A stretch of 64,000 bases of DNA, taken from assembly GCF_964355755.1 (NCBI RefSeq), contig NC_092678.1, positions 4,002,922 through 4,066,921 on the forward strand, in the 5' to 3' direction. The DNA comes from Antedon mediterranea (Eukaryota > Echinodermata > Crinoidea > Comatulida > Antedonidae). Below the pieces are notes generated by a model, which was not told the DNA's origin, made no database searches, and was given only the letters and a program-made list of their open reading frames with translations. Position numbers and translations under genes: made by a program. Positions 5,786 through 60,714 of the stretch are shown here, piece by piece (position 1 is the first letter of the stretch; the number at the start of each line of letters is the position of its first letter).

Positions 5786-5863
5786 CGGTGACTACTTCTT
5801 CGCATGCAGCTAAAGTAAAATGACGTCATGTTAAAGTGGGTCGTCACAGAGTCTCATGCATAT
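5786..5863 (-). promoter_or_regulatory. CRE-containing promoter module, copy A (ZC3HC1 side)
   Basis: A 78-bp segment just upstream of the ZC3HC1 start codon on the minus strand. It contains the perfect palindromic CRE/ATF site TGACGTCA at 5821-5828. The whole segment recurs inverted at 6547-6624 with about 75 of 78 bases identical. Position and motif suggest it is the ZC3HC1 core promoter or 5' UTR; binding itself is inferred. Confidence 0.6.
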
Positions 5864-10100: not shown

Positions 10101-10866
10101 TTAACAAGAAATGTACTTTGTTATTATTTGCAGATATATACATGTGTGGTGGTCATAATAGTAGCTATATATATGATGATTTGTGGCGATTGAATCTAGA
10201 GACATTACAGTGGTCTAAGCTTTCTGCAACAATGCCTGTTCCAACTTTCTTTCACACAGCAGCTGTTACACCTGTAAGTCAATTAAAATATTTCCTAACC
10301 AGTCTATCTCAATAGAACAACTTTCTCACACAAAAATAACTGGTCTGTGGTCAGACTTTAATAATCAATTTCTACTGTATATACTTACAAAGTGTAATAA
10401 TTTAAAATCTGTATGTTTGAATCAAGTATAAGTTAAAACTGGTTCTCTAAGTATTGTCTTTGAATAGGCATTGATTCTGTTTCATTTAAGCTCATTCATA
10501 CTGGTAATTTTCTGTGACTCCCAGCCACATCTACAACTGTTCACTGTTTTTATTTGAGCAATGCTAGTAGAACATTACGAGGTGTTTGTGATTCACCAGT
10601 TTATAAATGGAAATAAAAAAACTTCTTTTTTAAACTTTTTTTTGACATAGGCTGGTTGTATGTACTTATATGGTGGTGTGACATCACTGTCAGAGCGAGC
10701 CAGAACGTCAGCCATATTTAGGATCTGGTTAGATGTACCCAGTCTGCTGGAGATCTCATGGAATTACCTGCATCAACTCTTTCCTCATTTACGTAAGCTC
10801 TCAGATACACAGTTATTTACCCTTGGTATACCATCACTTCTGTTAGACCGATTGAAACCATACTAA
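7156..10866 (+). CDS. KLHDC10: KLHDC10, Kelch-domain substrate receptor of CUL2 ubiquitin ligase
   Basis: Orthologue of KLHDC10, a substrate receptor of CUL2-RING ubiquitin ligase that in human recognises C-terminal degrons, including alanine-tailed products of ribosome quality control. Coding exons: 7156-7213, 7879-8048, 8364-8448, 8575-8729, 9022-9291, 9672-9792, 10134-10273, 10651-10866. They total 1215 nt in one frame, 404 residues against about 442 in human; the glycine-rich vertebrate N-terminus is absent. The start gives MALPLKVGHFVQISS, matching the conserved FVQLS segment. Six Kelch blades follow with GG pairs (VYGGYHPEY, LFGGTGFPWG, IFGGCRQ, MCGGHNSSY, YLYGGVTSL). The C-terminus keeps a BC box (SLLEISWNYL, from about residue 364) and a following Cul2-box-like LFPHLRKL, consistent with Elongin B/C-CUL2 binding. 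All junctions are GT-AG and phase-consistent. Divergent from ZC3HC1 across a 1.4-kb shared upstream region. Confidence 0.95.
9907..9992. repeat. Short minisatellite in KLHDC10 intron 6
   Basis: Degenerate units of about 15-18 bp built on GTGGTCATCTTCATT recur five or six times. No coding or regulatory role visible. Confidence 0.6.
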
Positions 10867-17099: not shown

Positions 17100-20000
17100 T
17101 CATGCTCCCATCTGCGTGTTCAGACCAAATGCGCCGATAAACACATTTATTATTAGAATGAGAAAAATAAGAGCAGTTGCCCAATTGTTGAGTTTATCAA
17201 GACGTCTCTGATGGTACATGTTGTTGAGATTGTCACGGCCAAGAAGTAAAAGAATTACGCCGACTGCGATTTGCAGGATGAATGAAAGAATCAACATCGT
17301 CATAACAAAACCGTAGAAATGATATGATGGGCCTTGAATTATCAAGACTTTAAACTGCGATGCATTGGCCAGTAGTAGAGATACGTCCAGTAAGCCCTCT
17401 GCAATTGTCTTCTTTGTAGCATAGGCATTGTAATCAATTGGGCGGGGCTGGGGGTTCTACAAAAACAAAAAAAAGACATATTAATTTAAAATAATCAAAT
17501 TTGTTGAAAATAGTAAATATTTATATATAGTGTTTTCTCAAAATGTATCAAAGCATCAGCTTAACAGAATTATGAAAACCTGGAAAAGGAAAGATATGCA
17601 CAGAAATAAAAGAAACATATTATTGTGGGAATGGGCATTTTCTAATTGACATGACATTACCCATCATACATAAAAACCAGTAAACAAGTGTCATCATTCG
17701 GTTTGTCCTTGAAATTGTTGCAGTTCATTGTTTGTGAAATCAATATTTTTTATAGTTAACAAACAATTTAAATTCTATAACAAAATCTATTGCTATACAA
17801 ATATATGTTAGATAGTAGACTACTACGAGACAGAAAAACCATGTAAAATCTCCCTCCACCAACCCTATATTGTAATCCAGGGGGTTGCGATTGGAGCTCC
17901 TCCTAAAAAAATGAAATTATAACTATTCTATTTTGGATCTTCCCCCTACTACACCTCCCACCCCCTGCCCCAACAAAAATAAACCAAAATGAACAGCTAC
18001 GCTACTGTACTTTAGTTCACTTTATCAATATGCGAAACAACCAATTTTAACTACAGTAGGGTAGATAATTTTTGGAAAAAAATAGAAAAATACCTCCATT
18101 GTGTTTGGAAAGGAAGAAAATGCATCAACCAGCCTTTCATAAAACACCATGGTTTTTACCGTAGTTCAGATACTAACAGAAATAATCCATCAATCTCAGG
18201 TACTAAGTTCCTGATTACAACACACCAGATCAATTAATAATGCAGTAACCAATCAAGACATTTATCAACAAACCCACAAATTGAATCAGCATGGTGAAAG
18301 GAATTATGGAGAATACTTATTTCTCCATGATGAAATTAATTAACAGACAATGCAGGTGAAAAAATGAAACGAAGCAAGCATAACAGGGGAACAAACAGTG
18401 GCGTACTTAATGAGATCCCATTTGTAGATGGTCCAGCGATTTAACGAATCTGATAAACTAATTTCTTTATTCTTAATCAGACAGCTTAAGGAACTAGAGA
18501 CTTGTGAACAGTGGTACATTATTGGTGGTTGGGTAATCCCTTGTCCTGTGGTATGTAATTAAACCTGTTTGCGTAGCGTGGGTTGCGGTGAGTGGCAAAA
18601 TATTAAAATGATCTGATCTTGTAAATAATAATAATAATAATAATACCAGATTTATATAGCGCCCTTTTCATGAGTAATCATGCTCAAAGGCGCTTTACAA
18701 GCATTATTACACCAGTATTTTTTGGGATCAAACACGTATGGAAACATACTCCCATAATGCAGCCGGTAACCAGCGCAGTTGTGTCTAGATCTAACTGGGT
18801 ACCCATTTATACACCTGGGTGGAGAGAGGCAACGTAAGTAAAGTATCTTGCCTACGGATACAAGCAATGCGGCGAGAGTTGGATTCGAACCTAGGTCTGA
18901 CGATCGGTAGTCCAACGTCCAACACACTGCGCCACATGCCCTCCACAAACAAATGTTTCTTCAGCATGTTTCATTTTCATCAAGGATTTCCTAACATTTT
19001 CATTAAAAAAAAATTATAATAAAGAAGAGGATAACCACAACCAACAACCAAAAGGTTCTGAGTTCAAATCTTGGTTATTTCTGCTTTTTCTCATTCTCAC
19101 AGATTTTCACATCTTTATCATTTCTAAATTAATAAATATTCTTTATATATCAACTGGGGTTTAGAATTTGTTCTGTGTTAATATATATATATATATATAT
19201 ATATAAAGTTTGTATCTCCATTGAAATCCAGCCACTGATACCCACAGCATTGTAATTTTTTCAGTAATTTGCCTTTGGATTTATACTGTATATAAATTGA
19301 CAGGCACATGTTATTAAGGGCAATAATATTATTGCACTGATTTCAATAAACAAATTAACCAATTTAATTTTTCTATATATTTTTGTTTATATATATTAAT
19401 GTTCAGGTAATAATTTAATGCATGTTGATGATGTGCATAATACTAGTAAATGACAAATTAAATTAAACATTTTTTTTTCTAATAAACAACTTAAAATAGA
19501 AGCTCATAACCATAATATTAATGTGGAAATAAATGTCACAAATTTCAACAAATCCTCAGATTCTACAAAAAATACACGAAAACACCTGAAAATCTTATTT
19601 ATGAAAACACATGCTAAAAATATCTAAAGAAAATGCAATTAACCTAATTTGAGTTGCATGCATTATCTTTGAATCAACTAAATAATTCAAATCAAATAAA
19701 AAAGCCATCAAGAACGACTGAATCCATCAGTACAATCATCCGGAATAAACACGATGACAGATGGTCCGACGGAATTGAAGAAACATCTTAGATATAAAGC
19801 ACGTCAAATCCAAATCAGCAGAGCCATGGTGCATGCTCAGTTTTCAATTCGAAAAATTTAACTTGTTTTTTATGCAAAATACGTTACCTCCATGCAGGCT
19901 TCAAATATGTTGGATAGTGAACTGTGAGCATTAAGTGACATGAGTCCACTCCTCTTTTAAAAAAAAACCTCAGGTGTTGTTCCCCGTCAATCCTAATGCA

Positions 20001-22479
20001 TGCGTGTCTTCTTTTCGATAATTTCCATTGTGTGGACGTTGTCATGTAGAGCCGAGCGGATTGATTATACGCATTCGACCATAATATAATTCGTGCATGC
20101 TCAAACAATGCTAATAATAATTTTGTTATCAAAATGGAACATTCCATTTTTACAACAGGGTTATTAATAAGATTTAAATGAAGCTAGTTTAATGTAATTA
20201 TGTTGATTATGTTAATGGTATGATTGCATTAAGATTACGTTGACCATCTTTACTTATTACTATACTATCAATAAAATTCTTTCTTCTCAGAAAATCACAA
20301 ATAAATATGCATTTAATGTTCATTTTCAAATAATTAAGCACATTTTTCAAGTTAAATCAAAAGTCAAATACCCTCTTTTCAAAATAGTTTTTATCTCAAC
20401 AAATTGTCGCATTACATATTGAAATTTGTAACATTATGCATACATAATTTTATAATATAAAAATCCATATCTGAAAGCTTATAACTTCCAACAATGCATT
20501 ACTATTTTATAAAAATTTGTATTGGATAGATATGATACAAAAATTGATATGATTGTCAAAAGAATTTTAGTATTATGACTCTATAAAACATTTGTTAATT
20601 CATATTAGTTTGGTATCAATTTTACTATTATTAAATGTGTCATTAATATTGACTTGATACAGTATATTTCATACATTTTACACTTTTACTACATTTTACT
20701 ACTTTGTAGAATTATTATCTAAACAGTATATTTAATCAGTATTATTCTTGTAAATTTAATGTGTAATACTATCTATTGATTTTTATATGAAACTGAATAT
20801 TGTATTTAACATATTAATAATAGTTGTTAGTATTGAAATGCTTGGTTAGAAAACCGAGCATTGTCATCTTTTATCAGACTTGTGTTTTTAGCAGTTTTTT
20901 CCTATTTTAATCAGTGTTATAACCTATTGAGTAATGTATGAATCTTAATGTTGTATGAAACAGTTTCATTTTTAATTTATTTTACATAAATCATGTTAAA
21001 CATTTACTCTTCTGCAATATGAATCATAGTATATAGTAAATCCAATAATAATAATTAATTATAGCCTCTCTGTTATTACGGCTGGCAACAAAGATTATTG
21101 CTTCAAACATATGCCATTTCTTTCAAACTTTTGAATAATATTCTAATAATCTCTTTTTAATATCAGATGATTGTGGTGTAATATTTCATATGAAAATTTG
21201 ATTTATTAATAATTATTGAAAAACCTAAATTCAACTTTTTTTTTTCAGCTTGATTAAGGTAAGCATTATTGTAAAGTTATTTTACTTTAAAAAAAAATGT
21301 GTGTTATTCACAGTTTGTTTACCTCAACATGAAAATGTGTGTATAGGTTGGAGTCTGATACTTTACACTCGCTGTGCTTTATCATAAATATGTATTCCAA
21401 TCTATAAATCATAAACGGCCCAATGAGAAAATATATAATGAGTGGAAAGGTCATTCCAAATGATACTCAAATTCTGGTCTTCTAATAGTCATTCTGTAGT
21501 TATTAAAAAATGAAAAATATTCCACTGTTGAGGCATTAATAAACGAAAAGTTCCATATAAACATCTTCAACATGATATGCAGCCATTTTATATCTTATAA
21601 GACTCTACAGTGATTCAGAAATGAGTCACAAACTTAAATTTATTATTATCAAAATTAGAAGAGGGACCATGCTTGGTGGAATTAAGATTACCATCCATTC
21701 TTAAACACCACTCTTGGGATAAAAAGGATTTAGCAGTTGCTCACAACTTAAGTCTTTATTTCAGAGTCCATCTAATTTGATATTTTCCTTTTGTTTTTTA
21801 AGAGAGTGTTATTTAATTGAATATGCCATTGTGTATTTAGTGTAATCAAGATACTGTGATATCAAGATTTTTTTTAAGTAGTACAATGTCACTTAAAATT
21901 TATATTGTAAACCTTTAAAAATAGTGTTGTATCTTCAATACTATTATTTATCTTCAAATTTTGTAAAATAATATTAATTTACACTAAATAGGGGTTATCA
22001 GTTACAGCTAGAAAAAAACAATTGGCTCATACAAGGTAAGCATGAACTATTTTTGTTTACCATTGATGAAATTAAATATAAAAAAAATTTACCCCCGATA
22101 TTGGTGTTGCTGGAACCGTAGTGACGTCATCTTGAGGACTCAAATCCAGAACTTCCAACTTTCTCTGTGGTTTTCTAACACTGCCTTGGTTTGCAATAAC
22201 TGAAAATGACCTCTTCTTTTCTTTCAGTGGTGAATCTCCTGATGCCTCCGAGTACCGTCCTCTGCTGATGTTTGAAGGTGTTGAAGGACCATGTCGATGA
22301 ATAAGTGGCGAGCTCTCTGGACCGTGGAATTCTATTTCATCATCTCTATCCCGAGGATTAAGTGGTTGTATATCTCCTAACTCAAAACGTCTTCGAACAT
22401 CTAATGTTGCTCTGTTAGATGGATCATCATGAAGCGATGCTTCTGCAAGAGGACTTGCATGCCCTTCACTGTCTTCCAT
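17100..22479 (-). CDS. NINJ: Ninjurin (NINJ1/NINJ2 family), long form
   Basis: Ninjurins are small two-pass plasma-membrane proteins; NINJ1 oligomerises to rupture the membrane in lytic cell death and both paralogues were first described in adhesion. The common 3' exon (17456-17100) encodes 118 residues: NPQPRPIDYNAYATKKTIAE, then an amphipathic region (LLDVSLLLANASQFKVLII), QGPSYHFYG, a first membrane segment (FVMTMLILSFILQIAVGVIL), the GRDNLNN loop, and a second membrane segment (ATALIFLILIINVFIGAFGL). This closely follows human NINJ1 (HYASKKSAAE, LLMANASQLK, QGPSFAFY, YDLNN). Joined to the first exon at 22479-22093 (phase 0) it gives 247 residues, with a 129-residue charged, probably disordered N-terminus. 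Two shorter first exons give forms of 136-137 residues, near the vertebrate size (142-152). It lies head to head with WNK. Confidence 0.9.
18094..18150 (-). CDS. Ninjurin alternative first coding exon C
   Basis: Reads MVFYERLVDAFSSFPNTME on the minus strand, followed by a GTATTT donor in phase 0. Nineteen residues plus 118 give 137. It is the nearest of the three to the common exon (638 bp) and ends ME like exon B. Support is positional and by phase; expression is unverified. Confidence 0.5.
18624..18944 (-). mobile_element. tRNA-derived SINE in ninjurin intron
   Basis: On the minus strand the element starts at 18944 with a tRNA-like head: box A TGGCGCAGTG (18934-18925) and box B GGTTCGAATCC (18891-18881), the RNA polymerase III internal promoter. 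A non-tRNA body follows and it ends in an (ATT)n microsatellite at about 18650-18624. Just before that tail is a long hairpin at 18658-18693 (GCGCC/AAAGGCGC arms, inner CATGA/TCATG). It lies between ninjurin first exons B and C. The head is intact enough to be recognisable, not a tRNA gene. Confidence 0.8.
19178..19206. repeat. (AT)n microsatellite
   Basis: An uninterrupted TA/AT dinucleotide run of roughly 28 bp within the ninjurin intron. Confidence 0.9.
19888..19941 (-). CDS. Ninjurin alternative first coding exon B
   Basis: Reads MSLNAHSSLSNIFEACME on the minus strand, followed by GTAACG donor in phase 0, directly compatible with the common exon at 17456. Eighteen residues plus 118 make a 136-residue protein, the usual family length. 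Too short to rest on similarity; the case is start codon, phase and donor, plus the shared ME ending with exon C. Confidence 0.5.
19942..22092 (-). other. Ninjurin intron between first exons A and B
   Basis: AT-rich non-coding sequence. It should include the promoter for exon B just above 19941. Nothing else recognised; the open frame at 20240-20422 has no similarity. Confidence 0.4.
22093..22479 (-). CDS. Ninjurin alternative first coding exon A (long N-terminus)
   Basis: Starts MEDSEGHASPLAEASLHDD and runs 129 codons to ...TVPATPISG, followed by a GTAAAT donor, phase 0. The segment is polar and rich in S, P, D, E, R, with no signal peptide or membrane segment, so it should be cytosolic or otherwise extramembrane and disordered. 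It includes basic and proline-directed stretches (SPLKEKKRSFS, DLSPQDD) that look like phosphorylation substrates. Joining to 17456 gives TPISG-NPQPRPIDY. Long N-terminal forms of ninjurin occur in insects. Confidence 0.7.
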
Positions 22480-24919
22480 TAGAAACTGGTGATATCAGAA
22501 ATATATTATAATATATACTTTTCCAAGATATCAAAAATATTCCTTAAACTTTTATCATTCCATATGTCGCTCTACTGAGTAGGCATATATGTCAGTATTC
22601 CATAACTTTGTATGAAGAAAAGGTCAATAAATTTCCTTCACAACACATAACCACTGATGCATTCAAAAATAAATTGCTGTGAGTCTCAAAAAAGCTGAAT
22701 ACACTTCCTCCGGTCGCAGTAAACAGACAGTTTCACAGTAGGCATGTAGTGTTTGTCTTCAACTCTCCAAACATACAGCTCTCTCTTAGTGTGAAATCCA
22801 ATAAACCGAATCAATTTCCAGCTCTATGATCATGCTATAGCCTAACACATCCACGCTATTCCAATTAGCAGACTGTAATTCATCAGTGTTTATTGGAGCC
22901 AGTCTGCTGCCATCTATCAGCTAATCAATTGTTAACTTGATTGTTGAACGCTTCCATTGATGTTTGAAATTAATAGTCTTTTGTACTTAATTGTCAACGA
23001 GAACAGCTGGTGGTAACAAGTTAAGCTTCATATGTACAGTAAATTATGGGCCTATATCAATCAACAACTTATTTTGCATTTGGTTCCAAAAGCTAGTTAA
23101 AATAAATCTTAATGGAAAATGATTCAAAAAATATATCTGAAGGCCAAAAATTGTAAAAGTCAACTTCGTGAAGATTTAAATATTTGTTTAGACCACAGAT
23201 AATAGAAAAATATTCTCAAAGATGAATGATATAGTCAATTAAAGAACAAAATGTCTGTTATTGTCCTGATAAAATCCTCACATTGTCCAGTTAGAGTAAT
23301 TTAAATAAAAAACAAAGTACCTTATCTATAATATAATCTTTTTTTCCTAAAACCCTTTTCAAATTAGCATTCCCAAGTACCAAATGAAAATTTTACAATA
23401 ATTTGGTTTTAAATTATTAATTTCTATTTTAAATTTCCAAAATTGATTGATAAGGCGTTTTTCAGATGAGGCGCGATTTCACAAAAAAAATCAATTATTC
23501 ATTTGTCGATTGATTTGCTTTGTCCAGAAGAATTGATAGGACAGGATATATACAAACAACATTTTTTGTTTTATATAAATGTTCAATGGTTTAATAATAG
23601 AACTATTGCATTTTTATATTTCATTAATTTTACTTTTTTTTGTTTCTTGGCCTTTGCCAGAAACAATAATGGGTTACTCAAGCTGAAGTCTTTATTATCA
23701 ATGAAAAAGCTGGCAGGCACCCAAAAAGTAATAATAATCCTACTGTTTATGATGATTACAAATTTTGTTTCCATCATTATTGATTCAATGTTAAACAGGC
23801 CAGCTAACTATTCCAAACATGTAATAAAATAAAAAATTAAAAAAAATATTTTTAAATATTAATTTTGTTTTTTATTATAAAAAAATAAAATATAAATATT
23901 TATAATATGTACTATTTTCACATCATTTTCAATTCGTGCATGCAGTTTCTTTACTCAACATTGGTGTTACACATGCAAATACCCTTGAAATTTATATAGG
24001 GTTACTTGGTTCCTTCAGCAGATGTTCCCTCCAAAAGTTACTGGTTCCATCCACTCCCATCCAGTCCTTTATGCGGTTGAATGCACAAGAGATAAGGCAT
24101 TAATTGATATATGTGAGGTGAAAAGTTTAATTGATGTCATGACTAAATAATCAATTCAATAATTATAATTAACATTCGTATTTAGTTATGCAATATAATA
24201 TTAATTATGTTATTTATGAAAACAGAGTTTAATTAGAAAAAAAAACGAACATTTGTAAGAATTCTATTATTAGAAAATTACGTAATGAAATAGATCGCGT
24301 ATCCTTCCGCAAATTTCAATTCCAGACGATAGAGGGCCAGGTCACGCTGGTACATTTTGTGAAGAAAGGGTTGTTGTTGTTCATCAGAGAGGTCTGCCAT
24401 GCAAATTTATTGTGTATGGAGCGATAGGATACGAACGGTTGTTATACGAGCAAATACGGAACAAGAAAAACCGCTCCCCAAAGCGGGCAAAGGCGGTAAC
24501 CGCCCTTTCGACTTGGATTTTTCGAAAGTATTTGGTTAAGTTATGTAGAGTTCCATTTTAAGACATATAAATTCTATTGGAAATTGAGAAAATACGACAT
24601 TTTCATCGTCAACCCGGAAGTGGAGGTAAAGGTCTAGCCTTTCGTTTTTGAATGGACACAGCCTTGGCTGCTGGGAGAAGGTGGTAGGCTATCCATCGTA
24701 TCGAACACATCGCTTGGTTCTTTGCTTTTTAATGCTGTAAAAATGCTGTTTATATGATAATTTTTAAGCTGTTTTACATATAACCCGACGCAGGAAGGTT
24801 ACGGAATTTATATTACGTTGGTTTTCGTGTTGATTTTCTCATTGGAATATTTTTAATTTATTTTTAAAAAGATGTCTTGATTTTCGTTATGGCAGTGAAG
24901 GTAGTTGGCTGGTTTCAGG

Positions 24920-24971
24920 TCAACACGGTTCACCGTGTTGATAGTGGTGGACTCCCACGTTGGCAGTCCAC
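24920..24971 (+). promoter_or_regulatory. Tandem hairpins in the putative WNK 5' leader
   Basis: 24920-24941 is TCAACACGG, loop TTCA, CCGTGTTGA: a 9-bp perfect stem. 24947-24971 pairs GTGGACT with AGTCCAC and has an inner CCA/TGG pairing. They lie about 325 nt before the WNK ATG. Whether they are in the mature transcript is unknown. Confidence 0.45.
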
Positions 24972-25036
24972 TTGCGCAAGAATCGTCTTCAACGTTTAGG
25001 ATTCATTTGCTGAGGACTCATTATTTTGAGTCATTA

Positions 25037-25128
25037 ATTATTAGTACGGACATTACATTGTACTCAAACATGAGGGTTTAACAAAGGGTCCAAAAGGATC
25101 TGTATATTAAAAAGTCCGTATTAATAAT
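25037..25128. repeat. Inverted repeat, 15-bp arms, before WNK
   Basis: ATTATTAGTACGGAC (25037-25051) and GTCCGTATTAATAAT (25114-25128) are reverse complements at 14 of 15 positions, enclosing 62 bp. May be an RNA hairpin in the leader or a tiny inverted-repeat element. Confidence 0.7.
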
Positions 25129-25294
25129 AAACAAAATAATAGGCTAGAATTCTTTAATTCCTAGCCACACACCCGAAGGCCTTTTACTTTATGATACATT
25201 ATTATTGCCTGTTGGTAATTAATATAACCAGATTTAATCAAAATAGGCCCAGAGATCCTTTAACTATAGACTAGTAAAAGGAGATAGATATACA

Positions 25295-26029
25295 ATGAAT
25301 GAAAATCCTAAACAGCAAGGAAATAAAAGCATGTCAAATGGCATTGCATTACAAGAGGAAGACAGAATTACCGGAGGGGGTAAATCTGCCAAGGAAATAG
25401 TGAACCAGCTTCCGCATTTAAATGGCAGTGGAGCTGTCCACCGTCATTCACTCGAAAGCAACGGTGAATCAACAATGGTGCTAGAACACTCAATAGAAAG
25501 TGCAGAATTGAAAAATGACAAATCCTTAACGTTGGTGACTAGTGCGTTAAAGAGCGAGAATGGTGCAAGAAAAACAAACAAATCTGTTATGATAACAGAA
25601 CCTGAGGAGGTAATAGCAAAGCGTCAACAGGAGAAAATTGAAAAAGAGCAGCAACATTTCAAAGATAAAGAAGTGCAAGAAAAACAGAATATTAACCCAT
25701 TGGAAGAAAAAACAGACAAACTGAATGGAGAGTCTGTTAAAGGAACCGAGAAATTTGTAGAAAGAACTGCTTGTCTAGATGAAGATATTGGATCAAATAA
25801 TGTTGCTAATAATACTACTGCTGCTGAAAATAATGTAAATGAAGGACAAGAAACATCAAAGCAAGGTGAAGATGAGTTGAAAGAAGAGAAGGAGGAAAAA
25901 GCTGTCGCTGTTTCTCCTTGTGGACGCTTCATGAAGTTTGACATTGAGGTTGGTAGAGGTGCTTTCAAAACTGTATACAAAGGTTTAGATGCAGAGACTG
26001 GAGTTGCTGTTGCCTGGTGCGAAATGCAG
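25295..26029 (+). CDS. WNK: WNK exon 1: disordered N-terminus and start of kinase domain
   Basis: Codes residues 1-245. The first 210 or so are charged and low in hydrophobics ([27 protein letters not shown]) and probably disordered. The kinase begins at [21 protein letters not shown]225 in strand 2 is the shifted catalytic lysine, and C242 takes the normal lysine place, the hallmark of the family. The exon ends ...AWCEMQ before a GTTAGT donor, where vertebrate WNKs also split. The ATG at 25295 is chosen as the first one in the open frame after the leader. Confidence 0.9.
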
Positions 26030-29000
26030 GTTAGTTATAAAGAAAGAACTTGGGTCTTTTGTACTGTGTATTTTCAATAATAAACTTTATTTAAAAATTT
26101 CAAATCATTGCATTGCACTACTGTACATTTAAAATCCAATTTTTATTTTAAGAAGTTCAATATAAATTTGCAACTGTTAGTCTGCTGCATCTCTAAAACA
26201 CTTGATAATATTTGAAATAATAACGATAAATTAAAAAAAAATTGTTTTCCGTCTGAGTTTATTTTCATTAATTTATTCTACTGTAAAAAAGATCTTTTAT
26301 TTTCTGATCACAGATCAGCATAATTTTTTTATCGTGATAAAGGAAAATATTCATTAGCCATAAAAAATATTTATATTGAATAACCACAAATATTCTTTCA
26401 TGTAAAAGACGAGAGTAATCCATTTTCTTAAAATTCAATTAATAATTTTTTTAAATCAAATTCTGACATATTTTGACATAAGAAAGTACATTGAAATTGG
26501 ATATAGACTAATGGAGGAAATAGTTCGTCTGACCACTTGTAATTAGTGAAACTGGTTTATATAAATAATAAAAACCAAACATTATTATCAGGTGATTATT
26601 GGTTTCACTAAAGACACTTTCTTGGAAATCAAACCAAATGTTGTTAAGACAGGTGTAAAGTAAAAAAAAAAACATTGAATATACAGTAACAAAGAAGTAC
26701 AGTTGCAAAAATATAAAAATCTTGCAAAAGCATTTAATTCATTTCTGTACTTGCAAACAGTAATTATATTGTAAACTAATATAAAAGTCTAATTGATTGA
26801 TGTTTTTCTTTGTAAGCTGTTCCTATGTTAGAAAAAACAAAATACATTTCCACAAAAAAATAATTATTATTACAGTTCAGTAGTTAAGAGAACAGGGTAT
26901 TTAAGGAAAAGACTAAAATAGAACGGAAAGGAAGTAAACCCCTTCCGGTATAAATTCAGGTTTACAGGACATTAATTATTTAGGTGTGCCAAGTGGAACA
27001 ACTAAAAAGTTGTTTATATTTAAAAGTAAAATCTATTATTCAGACTTTATACTGTAGTTGCAAAACTGACAGTTAACTGTACTGTACATAAGGAGGTTAA
27101 TGTGGTTATATACTGTACAGTAGTAAGGAGGTTAATGTTTCTGTCTAAACTAATTCATCAACAAGATTTGTTTTTACATTCAATTTTTTTTGTTGGTCAG
27201 CTGGAACTTGGAAGTGGTCATTTGATCACAACCAAATGGTTTAGCTTGACATTTAACTCAAAACCACATCCCACATTTGGCAAAATATTCACCACATCCT
27301 AGGTGGAAAAAGCCATAAAACCTTTGAACTCGAAGAAAAGTAAAAGTATTTACAAACATAAATTAATACATGCATGTATTATTTACTATATTTAAATTAA
27401 TCAGAAACTGATGTTGCAATGCCCAACAAAGCAATTTAGATTTAATTGTAGTTACAGTACCATCAGTACGTATTATAAGTTAGATAATTACTGTAATTTT
27501 ACATACTGTACTGTAGTATACAGTACTACAGGTACTGAGTTAGCATACCTTCATTTAAGTCATGAAAATGGTGCATAAGGTAAATAAAGTTAGTACAAAA
27601 ACTGTAAATGGAAGCATGTTTATTTCTTAAATATTTATACTGTACCTTTAATTGTTCCTTTTTGTGATTTTATTGTTTTAAAAATAATTCAATCAATAAC
27701 TAAATTTGTATTTTCTTATGTAGGAACGAAAATTGTCAAAAGCAGATCGCCAGCGTTTCAAAGAAGAAGCCGAAATGTTGAAAGGACTAAGTCACCCAAA
27801 CATCGTGAGCTTTTACGATTACTGGGAGGCTATGTTTGAGACATCTACTGGTGCAAGGCGGAAACATATTGTCTTGGTTACAGAGCTCATGACATCTGGC
27901 ACGCTCAAAACGTATGTTGTGGTGTGGTCAGAAACTTTATTTAAATACATACATAAATCCAAAGACAAATTATTGAAAATAATGACTGTGGGTATCAGTG
28001 GCTGGATCTCAATGGAGATGCAAAATAAAATAAGATAAATCAAAACGATGAAGTAAACCAGCCAGAAAAAGTAGCAGAGCATATACATTATTTAAATCTA
28101 GTTTTAATAAAAGTATAACAAACTTGGTGTAAAATTTATTATACAGTTATGTGAAATACTTGTAATAATTTTTTAAACAACAGATACTTGAGACGATTTA
28201 AAGTTCCGAAAATAAAGATGTTGCGAGGATGGTGCAAGCAAATCTTAAAAGGTCTTCATTTCTTCCACACAAGACAACCACCTATCATTCACAGAGACTT
28301 AAAGTGTGACAACATTTTCATCACTGGTACATCGGGTTCGGTGAAAATTGGCGACTTGGGCTTAGCCACTCTCAAGAAAAACTCCTTTGCTAAAAGTGTC
28401 ATAGGTAAGAAACTTTAATTTTGTTATTTCTTGTCTAATTTTTTTTGTTTGAATGACAATATTGACTGGGGTTTGTTGCATCATGGTTAAGTCTTGAACG
28501 TAGGTTGAGTCAGATCCACTCAAAGTCACCTTCAAAATTGAGCTGAACCCTGATCAGACAAACTCTAGTCTAATTTAGTCATTTTGTATCTATCACATGC
28601 ATACGTTACAATTGCACATGTTTTGCACTATTCAAGTGTAGCCATGTCTATTACAAGGATCAAAAGGGTGATTAATGGACCAATTGTACAATCTTGGGTT
28701 TACTACTGTATATTATATATATTTGGTTATTATTTATCCCATGTTTCAATTAACAGGTAACCTATGCATGTGATATATCGTTTATCTTAATGTGTATAGC
28801 AGTTGCTTTTCAGGGTTCCCTCAGATTGGTTTCATCTATTTTGTAAGGTATGCAATTTGGATAAAAACTATATTACATTTAACATTACATGATGACATAA
28901 CAGTATTCCACTTGCTATCTTGCGTCTTAATGTAACATGTTGTTGGGATATCTACAGTGTTACATTTTATATTATCTTATCAACAAATTATGTGAGAAAA

Positions 29001-32000
29001 TACACATATATTCCACTAATTAAATAAAAAAAAAATTGACATTTGAAATGTATTTACATATATAAACAATATATTTTTACATTGACACATCACTAACACA
29101 AAATAAGGAGAAATTAATGAAACAGAGTTATCAATTGTTTGTTTATTTTTGTGTCAATTCATGAAAGCCTGAGGCTAGTTTGATCTTGCATATGTCGTGT
29201 GCGTAGTCTTTGCTATTTTATTATTTCCTGCAGTTACAAGGTACAAGTCAGTGTGGAAGAGCCAGGTAGGGAGAAGGGTTAACTTGTTTAGAGGAGTCGT
29301 CAGGGGTGTAGGCATACAGCTTTGAAACGTACCACTTTTAAAGGTCCAATTCAACGGAGATATTTCCATTATTTATGATAGCCAAATATTCTATTTTTAA
29401 TTCTTCCCCTTAGGACATAATTTATAAATTTATTAAGGACGAAATTAATTAAATAATTGACAGTGAATAAATGGTAATTGGCATACATTGGGTACAGCAT
29501 TAATAAAGAAAAGCATTTGCTGTCAATGTTTTTTCACTATTTTATAACGGAAATATTAAGTCTGTTGAGTGAACCTTTATTGTCTTTATTGGCGTGGAAA
29601 TAGGGACATTGTAATTGAACTAAATGACATGAAAGACTATGGTTTGTTAGTTGAGCTATTCATGTTGTGTTAAGTTGTCTGGTTGACTGCTGCATAGTCA
29701 TAATGTGTGTCATTAAAAATAAAGCTCCTGATTACAGTATTTCATAGTCTTTTGTGTTGTGTAGGTAATTGCAAACTCTCTACTGATGTAATCAGTAAGT
29801 TTATATCAAGATTTCAAGCTTAGGCCTAGACCTGAATACCTCTTGAAGACTCTGTAGCACTAACCCTACTCTTTCCTCTGGCTAACCGCCACTTCTCTCC
29901 CCAGCACTCAAACAGAATCCCACCAATCTTTGTATTTAAGGTACCCCCGAGTTTATGGCTCCTGAGATGTATGATGAACACTATGACGAGTCTGTAGATG
30001 TGTATGCATTTGGTATGTGCTTGCTAGAGATGGCGACGTCTGAATATCCGTACTCCGAGTGTCAAAATGCAGCTCAAATATACCGAAGAGTTACAACAGT
30101 AAGTTTAGGTTTAAATTTGAAATTGAATTTTAAATTTATGTAGTGAAGTATGAGACTCAGGTTGGGGAAAGTTTTGACAGTCCAGTCAAGGTCAGGTTTT
30201 TTTATAGTAATTAAATCATCAAAACTATTGTTATTCTCTGAAAATAAACTAAATAAGTGTATACTAGTTACTACTAGTTAATTAGTGTTACTTATTTTCT
30301 AATCTATGAAAATTAGTGGATTCCAAGGAAGTGTTGCGGTTGCGTGCGAATTTGCTAGTATGATTTTACATCTCACTGGGCAGTGGGATAAGTGACATAT
30401 TTAACACGTTGTAAGGCTAAGTGCAGGCTCTTAACATGCACTAGGGAAGCATGGAATCTACCGGCAATTGGTTGATTAATTTAGAATTTGTCGTTTTTTA
30501 TACCGAAGTTGTTGAAATATGTATGTGATGACTGGTTGTTTCAGCATTCATCAAATGTGTATTGAAGCATGCAATTAATTTGGATTGTAAATTAGAGGAA
30601 TCCTCCATAATTGTACCATCTCATTTTACTTTGGCCAAGTTTATTTTGCCTTCCACTATTTATTTAAAATGTAATTTTATTACTGTTGTCCTTTTTTTTT
30701 AGGGGATTAAGCCAGCGAGCTTTGAGAAAGTAAAATATACACAGATTAAGGAGATTATAGAAGGATGTACTCTATCAGATCATACAGCAAGGTAAACACT
30801 TTAAAATTGATTTATTTCCATATCACCACCATGCTGCTCCTTAACATACAACATACTCTAATCAATATCTGTATCAATTTTCAAACTATTCACATAATAC
30901 CAACTCTTCTAAAACACCACATATCCAACAACGCTATACATGCCTACCACATGCAAATATGTTTGGGTGCTAATGCAATTTGTACTCCAGAGTGGAATAT
31001 TTAGCGTGTTAGGTTCTGTTGTAGGAGTGAGGTTGTTTGTTTACGGGTTGAGTACTAACATGCATTAGCGTCTAAGGTTAAATGCGTGTGATATAGTTGT
31101 GTATATCGTTGTATGGATTGTGGCGTTTATTAAGACCTTATGATACAACATCATCCTTTAATTACATTTCATGAATACAAACAACATAATTGTTGAAATG
31201 ATTTAATCTATTGAAATAATAACATTTTGATAAATCAACCCATAACAAAACGATATTCAATAATAAATTTATATTTTGAGTTATATATTGAGTTGGATAT
31301 CAAGCTCACCATTTTAAATTGAGGAAGATTTGTTGATTCTTCTTATCTATTAATCAATGTGTGTTTGGTTAGGTGCATCAGACATGACGTAAAAGGCGTG
31401 ATTAATTACGATAACAATCTGATAAATGTGTACGTGTTTAGTTTTTGTATTTGACTGCTGCTACGCGTTAATTACATTATTAATTTTTTTGTTAATTTGT
31501 CTCTCATCATAATGAAATTAAGATTTTAGATTAAGTATATAAATAAAACTAGAGGAGGATAGTGAAACATTGACAAAAATCAGTGAAATGCAAATAATAC
31601 TTAACCTTTTAGTAAATTGATCTGAATTTTTTTATAAACTATACAATTGTGTAGATCCCTCACAGACGGAAGATGCTTTTTATGATCACAGCAGCTTTTA
31701 CATTAGGTTTCATACTCATTTCGCACAATGACACGATTAACAAAACCTATCATTACAAATGCCTCATTAATGTTTATTACTTTATTTTCCAAACCATTTT
31801 TGTACATCTGCACAATTTCACAGTCTTTCATTCTATCTAGTTTAGTATCCATCTCACACACCGATGTGTCGTGGCCGTTATTTTTAATTTCCAACATTGA
31901 TCGGGCCTGACATAAAAGTACATTTTCAATTGGATTTTGATAAATATTGCAGTGTTAGGTAGATCACAGTATTTGATACACTGTATATTTATCTTGTACC

Positions 32001-56000: not shown

Positions 56001-58535
56001 TTAATGGGATAGAAATAGGGCGAAAAAAAGGTGGAAGTCTGTCACCAAATGTAGAAACATCTAATATGAAACTTTAAAGGTTTATCAGTAGCATCAATAA
56101 CATTTAATCTATAGTAGTAATTCTATATAGTAATACTTTATAGTAACTCATTTATTTTTCACAGAAGTCAACAGCTTAGTGATAAAGAAAAGAGAGACAA
56201 AAGCAAAGAAGAACGAAAACAAAGGCACAAAAGCTTGAAAAGGACCAAAGATCGTCCACCAAAAGTATCAGTCATATCATTTGATAAAGAAATATTAGAG
56301 TGTGCGTTCACTAATCACAATGGCCAACAAGTAACATTCAGATTTAGTTACGAGGATGACAACCCCGAAGAGATGGCTTTAGATTTTGTGAGTTTGTTGT
56401 TGAATCTTTTTTATTGAGGAAAAATTCTATATTAATGATGCAACTGAATTACTGAAAACTCTGTACGTATTTGTAATTATTGTTATATTTTGTTTTTCTA
56501 GATTAAGGGCGGCATGCTCAATGAAACATACAAGGTTCTTCTGATCGACCAACTCCATAAGATCTGTGAAGAATGCAAACTAAAAGGACCAGCAGCCATC
56601 TCACCACCTGGTGAACTAGAACGACCAGTACCACCATCAAGTCCTAAGTCTGCAGCAACTCAGAATCGGATAGTGGTACCAATTGATATTGATGAGGATA
56701 CTAATGTTCAGGTGAATTTTCTACTACCATGGAATCTTTTTTTAATATTTCATAGATCTTAAGGTCTACTGAACAACATAAGCTTTTTAAAGAACCAATT
56801 TTGTTGTAATCCATATTTCAATAAATTGCACCAAAATAAGACTTACTTTTATATGGCCAAGATGCAACTCTAAAATTAAGTTTTTATGTATATCTTATAT
56901 TTTCTGAATTCACAGACACAAGTAGCTAAGAAGCAGCCAGAAACTGTAATGCCATCTCCTAAAAAAGAGCCGCCAGGTGATTTAGTATCAAGTGCAGAGC
57001 AAAAACAAGGAACTGGTAGTCCCGTTGAGAATACATCAAACGGAAGCACGCCAAGAGATGCCACTGTTACCGACCCCATTTCTGAAGTACACCAAATAGA
57101 TTTGTCATCATCAGCAGGATCTTCAAACTTAAATCCAGCATTTGAGCAAATGGCTAATCAAAAACTAAACTCTGTAGCTGCTTCAGAAGTGCCAATGGTA
57201 TCACAGCAGTATTTTGTTCAGAACACAATTGCCAATCCAGTATCTACAATTGGTAGCAGCGCTTATCAGCATGCTTCATCTCACCAGCCTCAAGGTGCTA
57301 CTGTGATGGTGTCTCAAGGCACTGTTATTGCTCCTCAAGTTGGTTCCATTGTAGTCCAAGGAGGCTGTGCTCCGCCTGGTGGTACAACACAGATGTATAT
57401 TCAGACACAACCACAGGTCATTAACACTGGTCAGATGGATGGACAACAACAAGTTATTTATCATCAGGATGCTGGAGGCCAAGCACAGCCAGGGAGCATT
57501 GTTCTGGCTACGCCTGGCAATGTTATTCACCAAACGCAGTCTGGAAATGTTATTCATCAGGCTCAAGCCGGTAGTATAATTCATCAAGGCCAGCCGGGAG
57601 GTGTTATTCACTCATCTCAACCAAGCGGCGTCATTCACCCTGGCCCACCTACTGTAATCCCATCACAAAGCAATGTCATCCATGTTGCAGCATCTCAGCC
57701 TATGTTTCAGTCTGGGCAAGTTCAGACTGGGCAAGTTCAAGGTTTCCAGCCTCAACAATCAGGTCATCAACAGCAAGTGTTTGCTGTTTACCAACAGCCG
57801 ACTCCAGTTCAGTCAGTTGCTAGCCAACAAATATATCATGAAAACATGTATCCGTCTCAGCCTGCTCAATCTCAACCTCCTGGTCAAGTGTATCAGCAAA
57901 ACATCCAAGAAGGTTCTAATCAATCCTGGATAGCTAGTCAACCAGGTCAAAGGGTACCAAACCAACAACCAGAAGGCGCTAATCAAACTTGGATAGCTAG
58001 TCAACCAGGTCAAAGGGTACCAAACCAACAACCAGAAGGCGCTAATCAAACTTGGATAGCTGGTCAACCAGGTCAAAGGGTACCAAACCAACAACGAGAA
58101 GGCACTAATCAAACTTGGATAGCTGGTCAACCAGGTCAAAGGGTACCAAACCAACAACCAGAAGGATCAAATCAAACTTGGATAGCTGGTCAACCAGGTC
58201 AAAGGGTACCAAACCAACAACCAGAAGGATCAAATCAAACTTGGATAGCTGGTCAACCAGGTCAAATGGTACCAAACCAACAACCAGAAGGAACTAATCA
58301 AAATTGGACAGCTAGTCAACCAGGCCAAAGAAACCAGCAGTCAGTTAGCCAAAGTCAGGGGAAAGGTGGTGCATCCTTGTTAGATTTGGATGAAAAACTA
58401 ACCAAGGTTTCCAAGAAGCCAGGTAAGGGTGGTTCTGCCTTTGTTCCACCAACCACAGGGGCAATTGGTCAAAACATACCTGGCACTATTCAGCAACCAG
58501 TTTCTAATGTTGCAATGGGTCAATTTACAGGGCAG

Positions 58536-58574
<39 letters not shown>

Positions 58575-60714
58575 ATGTTTCATAATTCAGCTGTGTCTTC
58601 CCAGCAACAGTTTCCAGGTGTACAGACTCCACAATCTGTTCAGAGTACTACAGGAGGCACATACATACAAATGCAATCACAAATGCACCCTCAGCTTGAG
58701 AGGAAGACATCTGATCAAGAAAAGAGAATGCTTTTGAATCAAGCAATGGAACGACATCCAAGTGACCAAACAGGAGTAGTGAAACCCATTGAAAGGACAG
58801 CCTCTGATCATGAACTTAATTCTTCTCCACCTGAACAAGTTTCAAGTTCACAGAATTCTTTCGATAAGGACACACCAGAACAAGTAGCAAAAGAAAAAGC
58901 CAAAGATATTGAGGAAGCTCGCAGACAATCTCTAGAAAATCCACAGGGTGATAATGTTGGTCAATCTAGGTTCTCTGTTAAAAAAGTTGGAGATGGTCAA
59001 ATTACTGATCAATCACATGAAAGCTCAGTTGAAAATGCTAAAACATCAGCTTCTGAAACTGATTTAGAAGGACAAAAACCTGAAAAACCTGTAGTTGTTG
59101 GACGCTTTAAGGTATCTCCAGCTGCTGCTGAAGAAACAAAAGAGAATTCACCAGAAACTGTTAAGGTTGACAAGTCAGATGAAAAAACACCTAGCCCTGA
59201 AACTGATAAAACCAAAACTGTAACAAATGTAGGGCGTTTCCAAGTGCTAAATATTAGCACATCCAAAGAAGATTCACCAGTACCAGATGAAAACCAAGAC
59301 AAAATTGAAAGCATACCAGAAAAGGAACAAACAGCAGTTGAAAGTCTGAAGAAGTTTGATCATGAGCAACACAGGCCTCTACCTGCTGTCAGCCCACAAA
59401 CATCAGTGAATGAATCTGAGAGATCAGACTCTATACCACTTGCAGAGGCTGTATCTTTAACTGCACCATATCCATTTGATCGTAAAAGTAGCATATCTGG
59501 AAGTGAACGAGGAACACCAGATAGCATTACAGCAGAGATGGCACAAGCAACTGTAACCAATGTTAGTCATGTTATACCTTTCCAGGCTGATTCAGGACAA
59601 ATGGGCTTATCACCAGAGACAGCTTCAAGCACTCCAGAACCTACCCAAATAAATTTTGCACAGGTAAGTAGTTTCTACTAAAACTATCTTTTAAACTCTC
59701 TAACCTTGAAATCTCAGATTAACAAGGATTGTCATTAGTGTTTACTGAATAGTAACTTAAATATACACCTTTCATTACAGCCTGGCCAGGTATCCATCGA
59801 TAACAAAATTCTACATATTGTGACCAGGTAAATTTTCCTTTGTATCATATTGATAAGAAAGTAATATTAAAATATATGAAAATTATACTTGATGGACGAA
59901 ATTCTAATTAATTAATTATTATTTTAGACATAATGAAGATCTTGATACTCTGCATAAGAGGTACATGGAGGATAAAGAAAAGTTATTGAAGAGACAAGAC
60001 CAAGAGTTGTGTGAAGTTCTAACTAGCAAAGGTATACCTCCATTTCCACAACTACTTGAGGCACTACGCAAGAGCTTAGCGCCACAAGAACCAAAACCTG
60101 TGCAATTCCAACCATTGCCACAGAACCTTGCAATTGATATGCAGCTACCTGGCCATGGAAGCCCTCCAGTCATCACTGGAAGTTTACCACATCATGTAAT
60201 TCCAACAACACAAGTAGCCGCTTCTCAAGGAGCATTCTTTGTCCCTGTTACTCATTCTGCCATAAACACTACCATGTCACTGACGCATAACCAGGCTTTT
60301 GATAGACCAACCATGCAGTATCCGATGGTGCACATGCCTTCTGGTAATGTACCAAGCACAAATGCAGCTGTTATATTCACCCAGAGTAATACTTCATATC
60401 CGGCTACTGTGCCTATGCAGATGACTCATGAAGTACAACGATCTAATTCATTAGTCCAAGGGGATCTATCTATACAACAAGGTGCACCCGGTCATCATTT
60501 ATCAAATATCGTCGGCATACAGGGTGGTGAAACTTTTGATCAGAGGATAGGCGAACAGCCAGCAGGCCAACAGATACCGCAAATGTTTCAGACTATACAG
60601 CCTGGGCAACCGCAGGCCGGTCAACCACAGCCTGGTCAACAACAGCCTGGTCAACCACAACCTGGTCAACCACAGCCTCAACATACATACAACAGAAGTA
60701 TAAGTGATAGTTAA
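25295..60714 (+). CDS. WNK: WNK (with-no-lysine) protein kinase
   Basis: Single invertebrate-type WNK kinase, a cytosolic chloride- and osmo-sensing Ser/Thr kinase that activates SPAK/OSR1 to control cation-chloride cotransporters. Coding exons: 25295-26029, 27724-27911, 28184-28404, 29941-30098, 30703-30791, 38532-38742, 45686-45875, 48823-48989, 50682-51005, 53789-53878 (or 53884), 55404-55526, 55767-55852, 56165-56387, 56502-56711, 56916-59663, 59781-59827, 59928-60714. All junctions keep one frame: 6597 nt, 2198 residues, comparable to human WNK1 (about 2,382). Landmarks: lysine in the glycine-rich loop (GRGAFK, K225) with cysteine at the usual lysine site (AWCEMQ, C242), HRDLKCDN (D346), DLGLATL (D365; chloride-site L366/L368), activation loop S375/S379, first CCT/autoinhibitory domain about 490-540, second CCT-like domain about 893-960, three RFxV motifs, and a C-terminal coiled coil. 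Intron 5 and 6 exceed 6 kb each. Confidence 0.95.
26030..27723 (+). other. WNK intron 1
   Basis: AT-rich. Contains a direct repeat of AAGGAGGTTAATGT (near 27090 and 27125) and many CTGTA/TACAG words forming short palindromes near 27060-27120 and 27500-27540. No exon recognised. Confidence 0.5.
27724..30098 (+). CDS. WNK: WNK exons 2-4: kinase catalytic core
   Basis: Exon 2 (27724-27911) encodes [20 protein letters not shown] and [12 protein letters not shown] through LMTSGTLKT. Exon 3 (28184-28404) encodes [13 protein letters not shown], the catalytic loop HRDLKCDN and [18 protein letters not shown]. Exon 4 (29941-30098) encodes [17 protein letters not shown] through [15 protein letters not shown]. 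All catalytic residues are present, and S379 matches the activating autophosphorylation site S382 of WNK1. Leucines 366 and 368 correspond to the chloride-contacting pair of WNK1. Confidence 0.95.
28405..29940 (+). other. WNK intron 3
   Basis: 1.5 kb of AT-rich sequence between exons 3 and 4. Nothing recognised. Confidence 0.5.
30703..38742 (+). CDS. WNK: WNK exons 5-6: kinase C-lobe end and first CCT (autoinhibitory) domain
   Basis: Exon 5 (30703-30791) reads [20 protein letters not shown] and [10 protein letters not shown], the end of the C-lobe. Exon 6 (38532-38742), after a 7.7-kb intron, reads [20 protein letters not shown] and then the CCT1/PF2-like fold: [20 protein letters not shown] and [19 protein letters not shown]. 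The phenylalanine pair in FDFDL corresponds to the family's autoinhibitory FxF motif. Confidence 0.9.
30792..38531 (+). other. WNK intron 5 (7.7 kb)
   Basis: Largest intron. It contains a diverged direct duplication (about 35480-35560 and 36985-37105). Around 37170-37420 there is a GC-richer island with GGTGTCGAACCCATGCC, which might be a decayed SINE head. No exon or alternative kinase promoter could be identified. Confidence 0.5.
35485..37105. repeat. Diverged direct repeat in WNK intron 5
   Basis: The segments about 35485-35560 and 37024-37105 share ordered words: TTTGCATA, ACACCATTGATTT, TTACCA, AATAATTCATTG or ATAATTCATTG, ACATTCTGTC, GTCA. Similarity is roughly 75 percent. Old duplication or two copies of an uncharacterised repeat. 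Confidence 0.5.
39717..41741. mobile_element. Putative 2-kb non-autonomous DNA transposon with TIRs and target-site duplication
   Basis: The left end is TAGGTATCCCAATG and the right end CATTGGGATACCTA, perfect 14-bp terminal inverted repeats. They are flanked by GTTCTAG at 39710-39716 and 41742-41748, a 7-bp direct repeat (8 bp, GTTCTAGT, if the left end is taken one base in). The interior differs from the host intron: the centre is more GC- and CpG-rich (about 40430-41110). Open frames inside (40991-41212 minus; 41325-41549 plus) are short and resemble no transposase I know. TSD size fits hAT-like elements, but the superfamily is not assigned. Confidence 0.75.
42197..42425. repeat. Tandem repeat, about 95-bp unit, 2.3 copies
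   Basis: Units start CTGATGTAGTTACT at 42197, CTGAAGTTGTTACT at 42293 and CTGAAGTAGTTACT at 42387. They share GATGTCTCATGGGCAAGT and end in TTCTCA before the next unit. Confidence 0.85.
43717..43810. mobile_element. Possible retroposon end fragment
   Basis: AATTCAATTCAACTTTATTT followed by AACCACAGAGGTCTTGAGC and CCCAGGGACCGTGCACATAC. The ATTCAATTC/CTTTATT opening resembles the one at 4953. Classification by general resemblance only. Confidence 0.35.
45686..48989 (+). CDS. WNK: WNK exons 7-8: CCT1 end, coiled-coil and Ser-rich linker
   Basis: Exon 7 (45686-45875) begins [20 protein letters not shown], finishing CCT1, then a highly charged helical stretch ([36 protein letters not shown]), a likely coiled coil. 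Exon 8 (48823-48989) continues [20 protein letters not shown], matching the DSGQGS-like segment of human WNKs. The acidic KLHL3-binding motif that precedes this segment in vertebrate WNKs is not seen. Confidence 0.85.
45876..48822 (+). other. WNK intron 7
   Basis: 2.9 kb, AT-rich; holds the 34-bp tandem duplication at 48035-48102. No exon or regulatory motif recognised. Confidence 0.5.
48035..48102. repeat. Tandem duplication, 2 x 34 bp
   Basis: Two adjacent units starting AACTAATTTTCATC at 48035 and 48069, differing at two positions. Confidence 0.85.
48990..50681 (+). other. WNK intron 8
   Basis: 1.7 kb of AT-rich sequence between exon 8 and the Gln-rich exon. Nothing recognised. Confidence 0.5.
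50682..51005 (+). CDS. WNK: WNK exon 9: glutamine-rich repeat exon
   Basis: 108 codons from [20 protein letters not shown], then TQQFQQQQ units repeated about nine times, to FTNQQFQQ. Phase 0 at both ends, so the exon can be skipped without frame change. The CAA/CAG tract should be length-polymorphic. Antisense frames here are by-products of the repeat. Confidence 0.85.
51006..53788 (+). other. WNK intron 9
   Basis: 2.8 kb. Has several short palindromic TGATGACATCA-like words near 51370 and 51520 but no defined element or exon. Confidence 0.5.
53789..55852 (+). CDS. WNK: WNK exons 10-12: linker
   Basis: Exon 10 (53789-53878 or 53884) reads [20 protein letters not shown] and [10 protein letters not shown]. 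Exon 11 (55404-55526) reads [20 protein letters not shown] through KAEVIQ. Exon 12 (55767-55852) reads [20 protein letters not shown] through LTDDG. All low-complexity linker. The exon 10 donor is ambiguous: a GC donor after FPTFK, or a GT donor six bases later adding Ala-Cys; both keep phase 0. Confidence 0.75.
53885..55403 (+). other. WNK intron 10
   Basis: 1.5 kb. Holds the MITE-like element at 54006-54250; otherwise nothing recognised. Confidence 0.5.
54006..54250. mobile_element. Small MITE-like inverted-repeat element
   Basis: Left end GCTATGTCTACACTA, right end (reverse complement) GCTATTGTTTACACT: imperfect 15-bp inverted ends 245 bp apart. The interior holds two related words, CACTACCATAT, and palindromic GATGATGTCATATC. 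No coding capacity; target-site duplication not evident. Confidence 0.45.
56165..56711 (+). CDS. WNK: WNK exons 13-14: second CCT-like domain
   Basis: Exon 13 (56165-56387) opens with a basic helix ([33 protein letters not shown]), then [39 protein letters not shown]. Exon 14 (56502-56711) continues [20 protein letters not shown] and ICEECK. The pattern ([22 protein letters not shown]) matches the CCT2/PF2-like domain of vertebrate WNKs (VTFKFD..SPEEIA). Confidence 0.9.
56916..59663 (+). CDS. WNK: WNK exon 15: giant low-complexity exon with RFxV docking motifs
   Basis: A 2748-bp exon, 916 codons, phase 0 at both ends. In order: a Ser/Pro/Gln-rich linker; a 9-residue GNVIHQxQx-type repeat (about 57525-57650); a 21-residue [17 protein letters not shown]-type repeat, seven units (57912-58329); a short conserved-looking [19 protein letters not shown] patch; a polyglutamine run (58537-58575); then a Ser/Glu-rich part with three SPAK/OSR1-type docking motifs: RFSV (58968-58979), RFKV (59103-59114) and RFQV (59235-59246). 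The last two sit in a (V)GRFxV context as in vertebrate WNKs. It ends [10 protein letters not shown] before a GTAAGT donor. Confidence 0.9.
57912..58329 (+). repeat. Coding 63-bp tandem repeat in WNK exon 15
   Basis: Seven units of 21 residues built on [20 protein letters not shown]. The last unit is divergent ([13 protein letters not shown]). Unit length is a multiple of three, so copy-number change keeps the frame. Confidence 0.95.
59781..60714 (+). CDS. WNK: WNK exons 16-17: C-terminal coiled coil and tail
   Basis: Exon 16 (59781-59827) reads [16 protein letters not shown]; exon 17 (59928-60714) continues [40 protein letters not shown], a heptad-like helix resembling the C-terminal coiled coil of WNKs that mediates multimerisation. 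The rest is disordered and ends with GQPQPGQ-type repeats (60601-60690) and NRSISDS before TAA. Termination at 60714 is certain within this frame. Confidence 0.85.

Follow-up and report, generated by a model that had tools for sequence, protein, structure and literature searches.

A Probably Ancestral Head-to-Head Pair of Ninjurin and WNK Genes in the Crinoid Antedon mediterranea

The ninjurin and WNK genes

The stretch of Antedon mediterranea DNA analysed here (64,000 nucleotides, referred to as the window) contains a ninjurin gene on the minus strand and a WNK kinase gene on the plus strand, whose start codons are separated by 2,815 bp. The outer limits of the pair (17100 and 60714) are the last positions of the respective stop codons. 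That the two genes are divergent neighbours, as the original prediction held, is confirmed by the Pfam and PDB identities of their products and by exon joins on opposite strands.

The ninjurin gene comprises two coding exons. Exon 1 (22093..22479, minus strand; start codon 22479-22477) encodes the N-terminal 129 residues, and its phase-0 GT donor joins it in frame to exon 2 (17100..17456, minus strand; stop codon 17102-17100), in which an acceptor can be read and which holds the whole Ninjurin domain, giving a protein of 247 residues; an AATAAA signal lies past the stop codon at ~17035. The frame at 17456-17100 covers the full domain in Pfam (Ninjurin, PF04923, positions 1-102 of 102, E 1.5e-32), and all six PDB matches to the window ninjurin are solved structures of NINJ2 or NINJ1. 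The 129-residue N-terminal exon is a difference from the mammalian pairs. A CAG acceptor-like site stands immediately upstream of the ATG, so the transcript may begin further upstream, possibly inside the CpG-normal island described below, and an additional 5' exon is possible. Genome-wide (354 Mb), there is one Ninjurin-domain match; because matches were counted exon by exon, "single copy" here means that one match was found, and a missing match is not proof of absence. The window ninjurin is identical to human NINJ1 at 53/108 positions and to human NINJ2 at 53/108, the latter two proteins agreeing with each other at 65/108, and this equidistance fits a gene that predates their duplication. 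The residues described in the cited part of a NINJ1 study as needed by NINJ1 for filaments and lysis (K45, D53, I84, Q91, G95, T123, I134, and A138; PMC10307626) are identical in six of eight cases, the exceptions being I84 (replaced by L) and I134 (replaced by V). At other positions listed there as differing between NINJ1 and NINJ2, the window protein is NINJ1-like at L57 and Q63, and has an A in place of G93, like neither (PMC10307626).

The WNK gene runs along the plus strand. Its first coding exon (25295..26028, start codon at 25295) has at its end the Gly-rich loop and the cysteine typical of WNKs (VAWCEMQ), and kinase exons 2-5 with their introns (27724..30790) supply the HRDLK, DLG, and APE motifs, with a Pfam Pkinase match on one exon. 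A cysteine in place of the beta-3 lysine, together with a lysine in the Gly-rich loop, is the signature of WNK kinases; both are present in the window, in a part of the alignment with WNK1 that is free of gaps. When the five kinase pieces (25.3-30.8 kb) are joined by hand, the best 15 PDB matches are WNK1 or WNK3 chains (425-436 bits, the next match scoring 109), and 193 of the 235 columns aligned with a WNK1 chain are identical. Further along the same strand lie an open frame with the OSR1_C-like CCTL1 exon (38452..38787; domain match 38620-38766, E 1e-14), an open frame with the CCTL2_WNK exon (56121..56414; the only match of this domain in the genome), and the C-terminal exons (56880..60714; ORFs 56880-59681 and 59908-60714), which contain Q-rich repeats and close with the stop codon ending at 60714. 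The frame at 56880-59678 has three RFxV motifs (RFSV, RFKV, and RFQV), so that a kinase domain closest to WNK, CCTL1, CCTL2, and RFxV/I motifs, all marks of the WNK family, occur together. A second OSR1_C match in the genome is on contig C1, not on C9, the contig of the window. Tandem repeats of a 21-letter type are also found in the frame at 56880-59678.

Kidney-specific WNK1 is a form made from an internal promoter, and one intron of WNK has a CpG-rich stretch (40.2-41.9 kb) that resembled such a promoter. This candidate was rejected, since the stretch is mostly a young mobile element: the segment 40200-41750 (query start 40200) has 40 scored matches among 327 candidates, its own included, which are 95-100% identical and are spread over C1-C11. 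The element is CpG-rich, most of its copies are ~1.5 kb long, and the window copy is ~1.5 kb or more.

The junction and the neighbouring genes

The intergenic DNA separating the start codons (22480..25294, 2,815 bp) was found once in the genome; a repeat origin was rejected, as 22480-25290 matches only itself (one match). Pfam searches with three intergenic ORFs, a selection from the short frames present, returned no match that would indicate a further gene between ninjurin and WNK, and an Rfam scan of the whole window gave no match at the gathering threshold. CpG in the window as a whole is at 0.51 of expectation, a poverty that is taken as a mark of germline gene-body methylation. The intergenic segment includes a CpG-normal island (24200..25199; CpG observed/expected 1.0-1.5 in 400-bp steps), a candidate WNK promoter that may also act for ninjurin. 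The island ends ~0.1 kb before the WNK start codon, begins ~1.7 kb from that of ninjurin, and abuts WNK only. The island could serve both genes, but with its position on the WNK side a shared promoter is a guess. It carries an ETS/GABPA site, CCGGAAGT, at 24614 and, at 24972, the palindrome TTGCGCAA; each of the two was reached in ~2% of shuffles, with 15 patterns tried (CCGGAAGT was seen once against 0.02 expected). The patterns used for TonE (osmotic response), HSE, and CTCF had no match in the intergenic segment.

The window reads ZC3HC1(-), KLHDC10(+), NINJ(-), WNK(+), with KLHDC10 and ninjurin tail-to-tail. ZC3HC1 (3186..5853, minus strand) was recognized from its NuBaID domains (3189-3626 and 4406-4573; PF07967, E 1.9e-10, and PF08600, E 1.6e-12), its 5' part as far as 5853 being assigned by eye, and KLHDC10 (7815..10866, plus strand) from its kelch exons and from the single PDB match of the C-terminal exon, Kelch domain-containing protein 10 (E 1.2e-18). 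These two genes form another head-to-head pair, ~6 kb from NINJ-WNK and with no evident shared role. Human ZC3HC1 and KLHDC10 are presumably divergent too. They are neighbours in human as in the window, and KLHDC10 is given as the next gene on 7q32, 19 kb from ZC3HC1 and "downstream" of it, a wording in the cited passage that does not state divergence (PMC4965579).

The gap between ZC3HC1 and KLHDC10 in the window carries four CCGGAAGT sites (6722-7066, two per strand), which lie partly within an inverted repeat. The gap also has a 78-bp inverted repeat (5786-5863 / 6547-6624) whose arms are 96% complementary, are separated by 683 nt, and each contain TGACGTCA. One of these arms runs into the open frame that was assigned as the 5' exon of ZC3HC1. 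No further copy of the 78-bp repeat was found in 164 kb and in loci L011-L017, and it may represent a promoter duplicated in inverted orientation or else a terminal-repeat element. Beyond WNK there is a second KLHDC10-like gene (L006:4863-7494, minus strand; 32/68 residues of its C-terminal exon identical), which places the NINJ-WNK pair between two KLHDC10 relatives. A single open frame of 633 residues at L007:7318-9216 (minus strand) encodes a rhodopsin-family GPCR (Pfam 7tm_1), which by eye we take to resemble histamine H1 receptors.

All five CCGGAAGT sites of the window fall inside the two head-to-head gaps (four in ZC3HC1-KLHDC10, one in ninjurin-WNK). Among 900 8-mers matched for composition and CpG, CCGGAAGT included, 49 of 273 sites fall in these gaps, and no other 8-mer has more than two there. 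In the cited part of a study of head-to-head gene pairs, GABP is reported to be important for their bidirectional transcription (PMC4089025). The sites were nevertheless rejected as proof of bidirectional promoters and kept as a lead, because four of the five are in one gap, partly inside the inverted repeat, and are thus not independent. The RAD52-ERC gap described below has no CCGGAAGT site, and two sites occur elsewhere (one at window coordinate -23744, in the flank, and one in the RAD52 coding region in L017).

Mammalian counterparts and companion families

Human NINJ1 is taken to adjoin WNK2 on 9q22, and the NINJ2/WNK1 and NINJ1/WNK2 pairs are both assumed to be divergent; on 12p13, NINJ2, WNK1, RAD52, and ERC1 would presumably make up two head-to-head pairs arranged tail to tail (WNK1 against RAD52). 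The mammalian neighbourhoods named in the original prediction are borne out by printed gene lists for human NINJ2-WNK1 and mouse Wnk2-Ninj1. The human 12p13 list, in the part cited, names KDM5A, CCDC77, B4GALNT3, NINJ2, WNK1, RAD52, ERC1, and further on DCP1B (PMC8303811), and that of a mouse chr13 QTL gives, in printed order, Phf2, Wnk2, Ninj1, Susd3, "Fdg3", and Bicd2 (PMC4204525). A human region of 196 kb, at a locus reported to be associated with stroke, includes NINJ2, part of WNK1, and the intergenic sequence between them (PMC4069013). A ninjurin gene thus adjoins a WNK gene in NINJ2-WNK1 (human 12p13.33) and Ninj1-Wnk2 (mouse chr13) as it does in Antedon, with KDM5A, RAD52, ERC1, and DCP1B listed as companions of the former and Bicd2 of the latter. 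The start codons are 2.8 kb apart in the window, whereas the corresponding gap in mouse is tens of kb according to the cited section of an insertion study (PMC7935976); in mammals the gap seems to have grown with the order unchanged.

Five families taken from the lists near NINJ2-WNK1 or Ninj1-Wnk2 (KDM5, RAD52, ERC, DCP1, and BICD; none was dropped) were searched genome-wide in Antedon, and all five are on C9, with every reported match of each: BICD at 0.16 Mb (3/3 matches, 3.9 Mb from NINJ-WNK), KDM5 at 3.24 Mb (5/5, ~0.8 Mb away), ERC at 23.67-23.70 Mb (8/8), RAD52 at 23.70 Mb (2/2), and DCP1 at 25.83 Mb (2/2, 21.8 Mb away). The window thus shares a linkage group with the companions of the mammalian pairs. 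C9 makes up 26.05 of 354.4 Mb (7.35% of the genome), and the chance of finding five of five there is ~3e-5, assuming uniform, independent placement and treating RAD52-ERC as one. Tektins, sought with a different aim, have five loci on C1 (two), C3, C4, and C11 (the C4 locus below the cut-off) and none on C9. Their aim was to place the animal, the assembly having no COX1 match from which a mitochondrial code could be read. The L013 tektin fragment scores 295 bits against 8snb_8D, from a sea urchin structure, and 157 against the best tektin-4 entry of the PDB, and L011 scores 182 against 8snb_8Q and 139 against the best tektin-1 entry; L012 points the opposite way (208 for a tektin-3 entry, 121 for 8snb), perhaps for want of that paralogue in 8snb. 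The comparisons were read as indicating a probable echinoderm.

Local order on C9 is unlike that in human. RAD52-ERC, next door to the pair in human, is 19.6 Mb from NINJ-WNK in Antedon, and both head-to-head junctions are intact. At the RAD52-ERC junction (L017, C9:23698500-23702300), the first Cast exon of ERC (minus strand) and a RAD52 exon open from C9:23700016 (plus strand), both checked with Pfam and PDB, are ~0.8 kb apart, a distance between recognisable coding exons in which earlier exons could lie. The four-gene order NINJ-WNK-RAD52-ERC may be the vertebrate rather than the ancestral state. Intact junctions amid scrambled order are the pattern expected from constraint on a shared 5' region, and are suggestive, two junctions being too few for statistics.

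Origin and persistence of the pair

From the one animal genome examined, NINJ-WNK is a real head-to-head pair, probably of deuterostome-ancestral age. The original prediction had proposed one ancestral pair that survived the duplication of the vertebrate genome, and had raised the question of co-regulation, as both products respond to cell volume or membrane stress. Its first part is supported by the divergent arrangement, by one match for each domain, by a ninjurin equidistant from NINJ1 and NINJ2, and by the five companion families on C9. Co-regulation is a hypothesis: the island abuts WNK and is ~1.7 kb from the ninjurin start, the segment has no TonE match, and the mammalian observations discussed below show a Wnk1 that is mostly unchanged in mouse and a human contact that is unspecific.

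The explanation favoured here, with fair confidence, is that the pair is ancestral, was duplicated in vertebrates, and has been kept together at its junction mainly by a shared 5' regulatory stretch and not by a joint osmotic response. The window would represent the invertebrate form, with one ninjurin and one WNK on a descendant of the linkage group of human 12p13.33 and 9q22; the vertebrate genome duplications would have copied the pair, leaving NINJ2-WNK1 and NINJ1-WNK2 as two surviving copies. The junction would have lasted mainly because a single compact promoter or regulatory stretch is common to the two 5' ends, such that breaks would harm WNK and probably ninjurin, and not because the products must respond jointly to osmotic stress. 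Evidence from mouse cells bears on how far this extends to mammals. Where a retrovirus had inserted into Ninj2 intron 1, lower Ninj2, Rad52, and Kdm5a are reported, Wnk1, ~77 kb away, being mostly unchanged in the results cited (PMC7935976). At that distance, a shared compact promoter is improbable as what keeps the genes together in mouse.

It is possible, if less probable, that the ancestral pair was kept only through slow rearrangement, with no regulatory reason. The retention of all five companion families on C9, the lack of a TonE, HSE, or CTCF pattern match in the intergenic segment, and the mostly unchanged mouse Wnk1 when Ninj2 fell (in the results cited from PMC7935976) all agree with such inertia. 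On the other side, the head-to-head junctions examined are both intact on a contig whose local order differs from human, which with two junctions is suggestive only. Head-to-head pairs are, moreover, described in the cited text as evolutionarily conserved and co-expressed (PMC4089025), and amphioxus-specific losses are given as few (5.3%; PMC6292497, in the part cited).

A stronger form of the favoured explanation, which is unlikely as a whole, would make head-to-head junctions indivisible on the ancestral chromosome: NINJ-WNK and RAD52-ERC would have outlived the scrambling since the echinoderm and vertebrate lineages separated, more than 500 million years ago, because each has one promoter stretch serving two genes, and NINJ-WNK would be an ancestral unit coupling a chloride and volume sensor to a membrane-rupture protein.

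Also unlikely is functional co-regulation, in which chloride and volume sensing (WNK) and membrane rupture (ninjurin) would be set together in stressed cells. The hypothesis of a functional link between the two products draws on reports, each in the part cited, that WNK1 restrains NLRP3 activation and pyroptosis (PMC8316491) and that NINJ1 executes membrane rupture downstream (PMC10897344, PMC10307626), although this connection is vertebrate knowledge; the window ninjurin itself keeps six of the eight NINJ1 lysis and filament residues. In human blood cells, the promoters of NINJ2 and WNK1 are described as co-accessible with one NINJ2 element, but the cited data give the same for those of RAD52, CCDC77, and SLC6A12, so the contact is not specific to the pair (PMC10298776). 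The different responses of mouse Ninj2 and Wnk1 (PMC7935976, in the results cited) and the lack of a TonE match in the intergenic segment also count against it.

An independent origin of the adjacency in the Antedon lineage and in vertebrates is scarcely credible, having nothing in its favour except the small number of genomes seen, and facing the same orientation (assumed for human), one match each in the genome, and five of five companions on C9.

The NINJ-WNK pair is a further example of an already known type of head-to-head pair. Like the ancestral chordate bidirectional promoters described in the cited part of a comparative study, which are expected to be old and are often disentangled in vertebrates, it is probably old; it differs in the 2.8 kb between its start codons, which is wide for a strict bidirectional promoter of <1 kb (PMC6292497). 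It also resembles PDI-RhoGDI, a pair of invertebrate age present in several human paralogous copies from which a functional link was argued, but that pair, as the cited text presents it, has the same transcription orientation and is backed by expression and binding data (PMC5722932). The open-licence literature, outside which most subscription journals lie, yielded nothing relevant on ninjurin-WNK synteny or ninjurin microsynteny, and the pair may well already stand in a printed table.

That two genes lie side by side is by itself a weak argument for joint function, as ZC3HC1-KLHDC10, ~6 kb away and with no evident shared role, illustrates. What the Antedon pair provides is a date for the surroundings of two gene pairs of medical interest, which would be placed before the vertebrate genome duplications, and, with one ninjurin and one WNK, a simple setting for the question of common regulation of volume sensing and membrane rupture.
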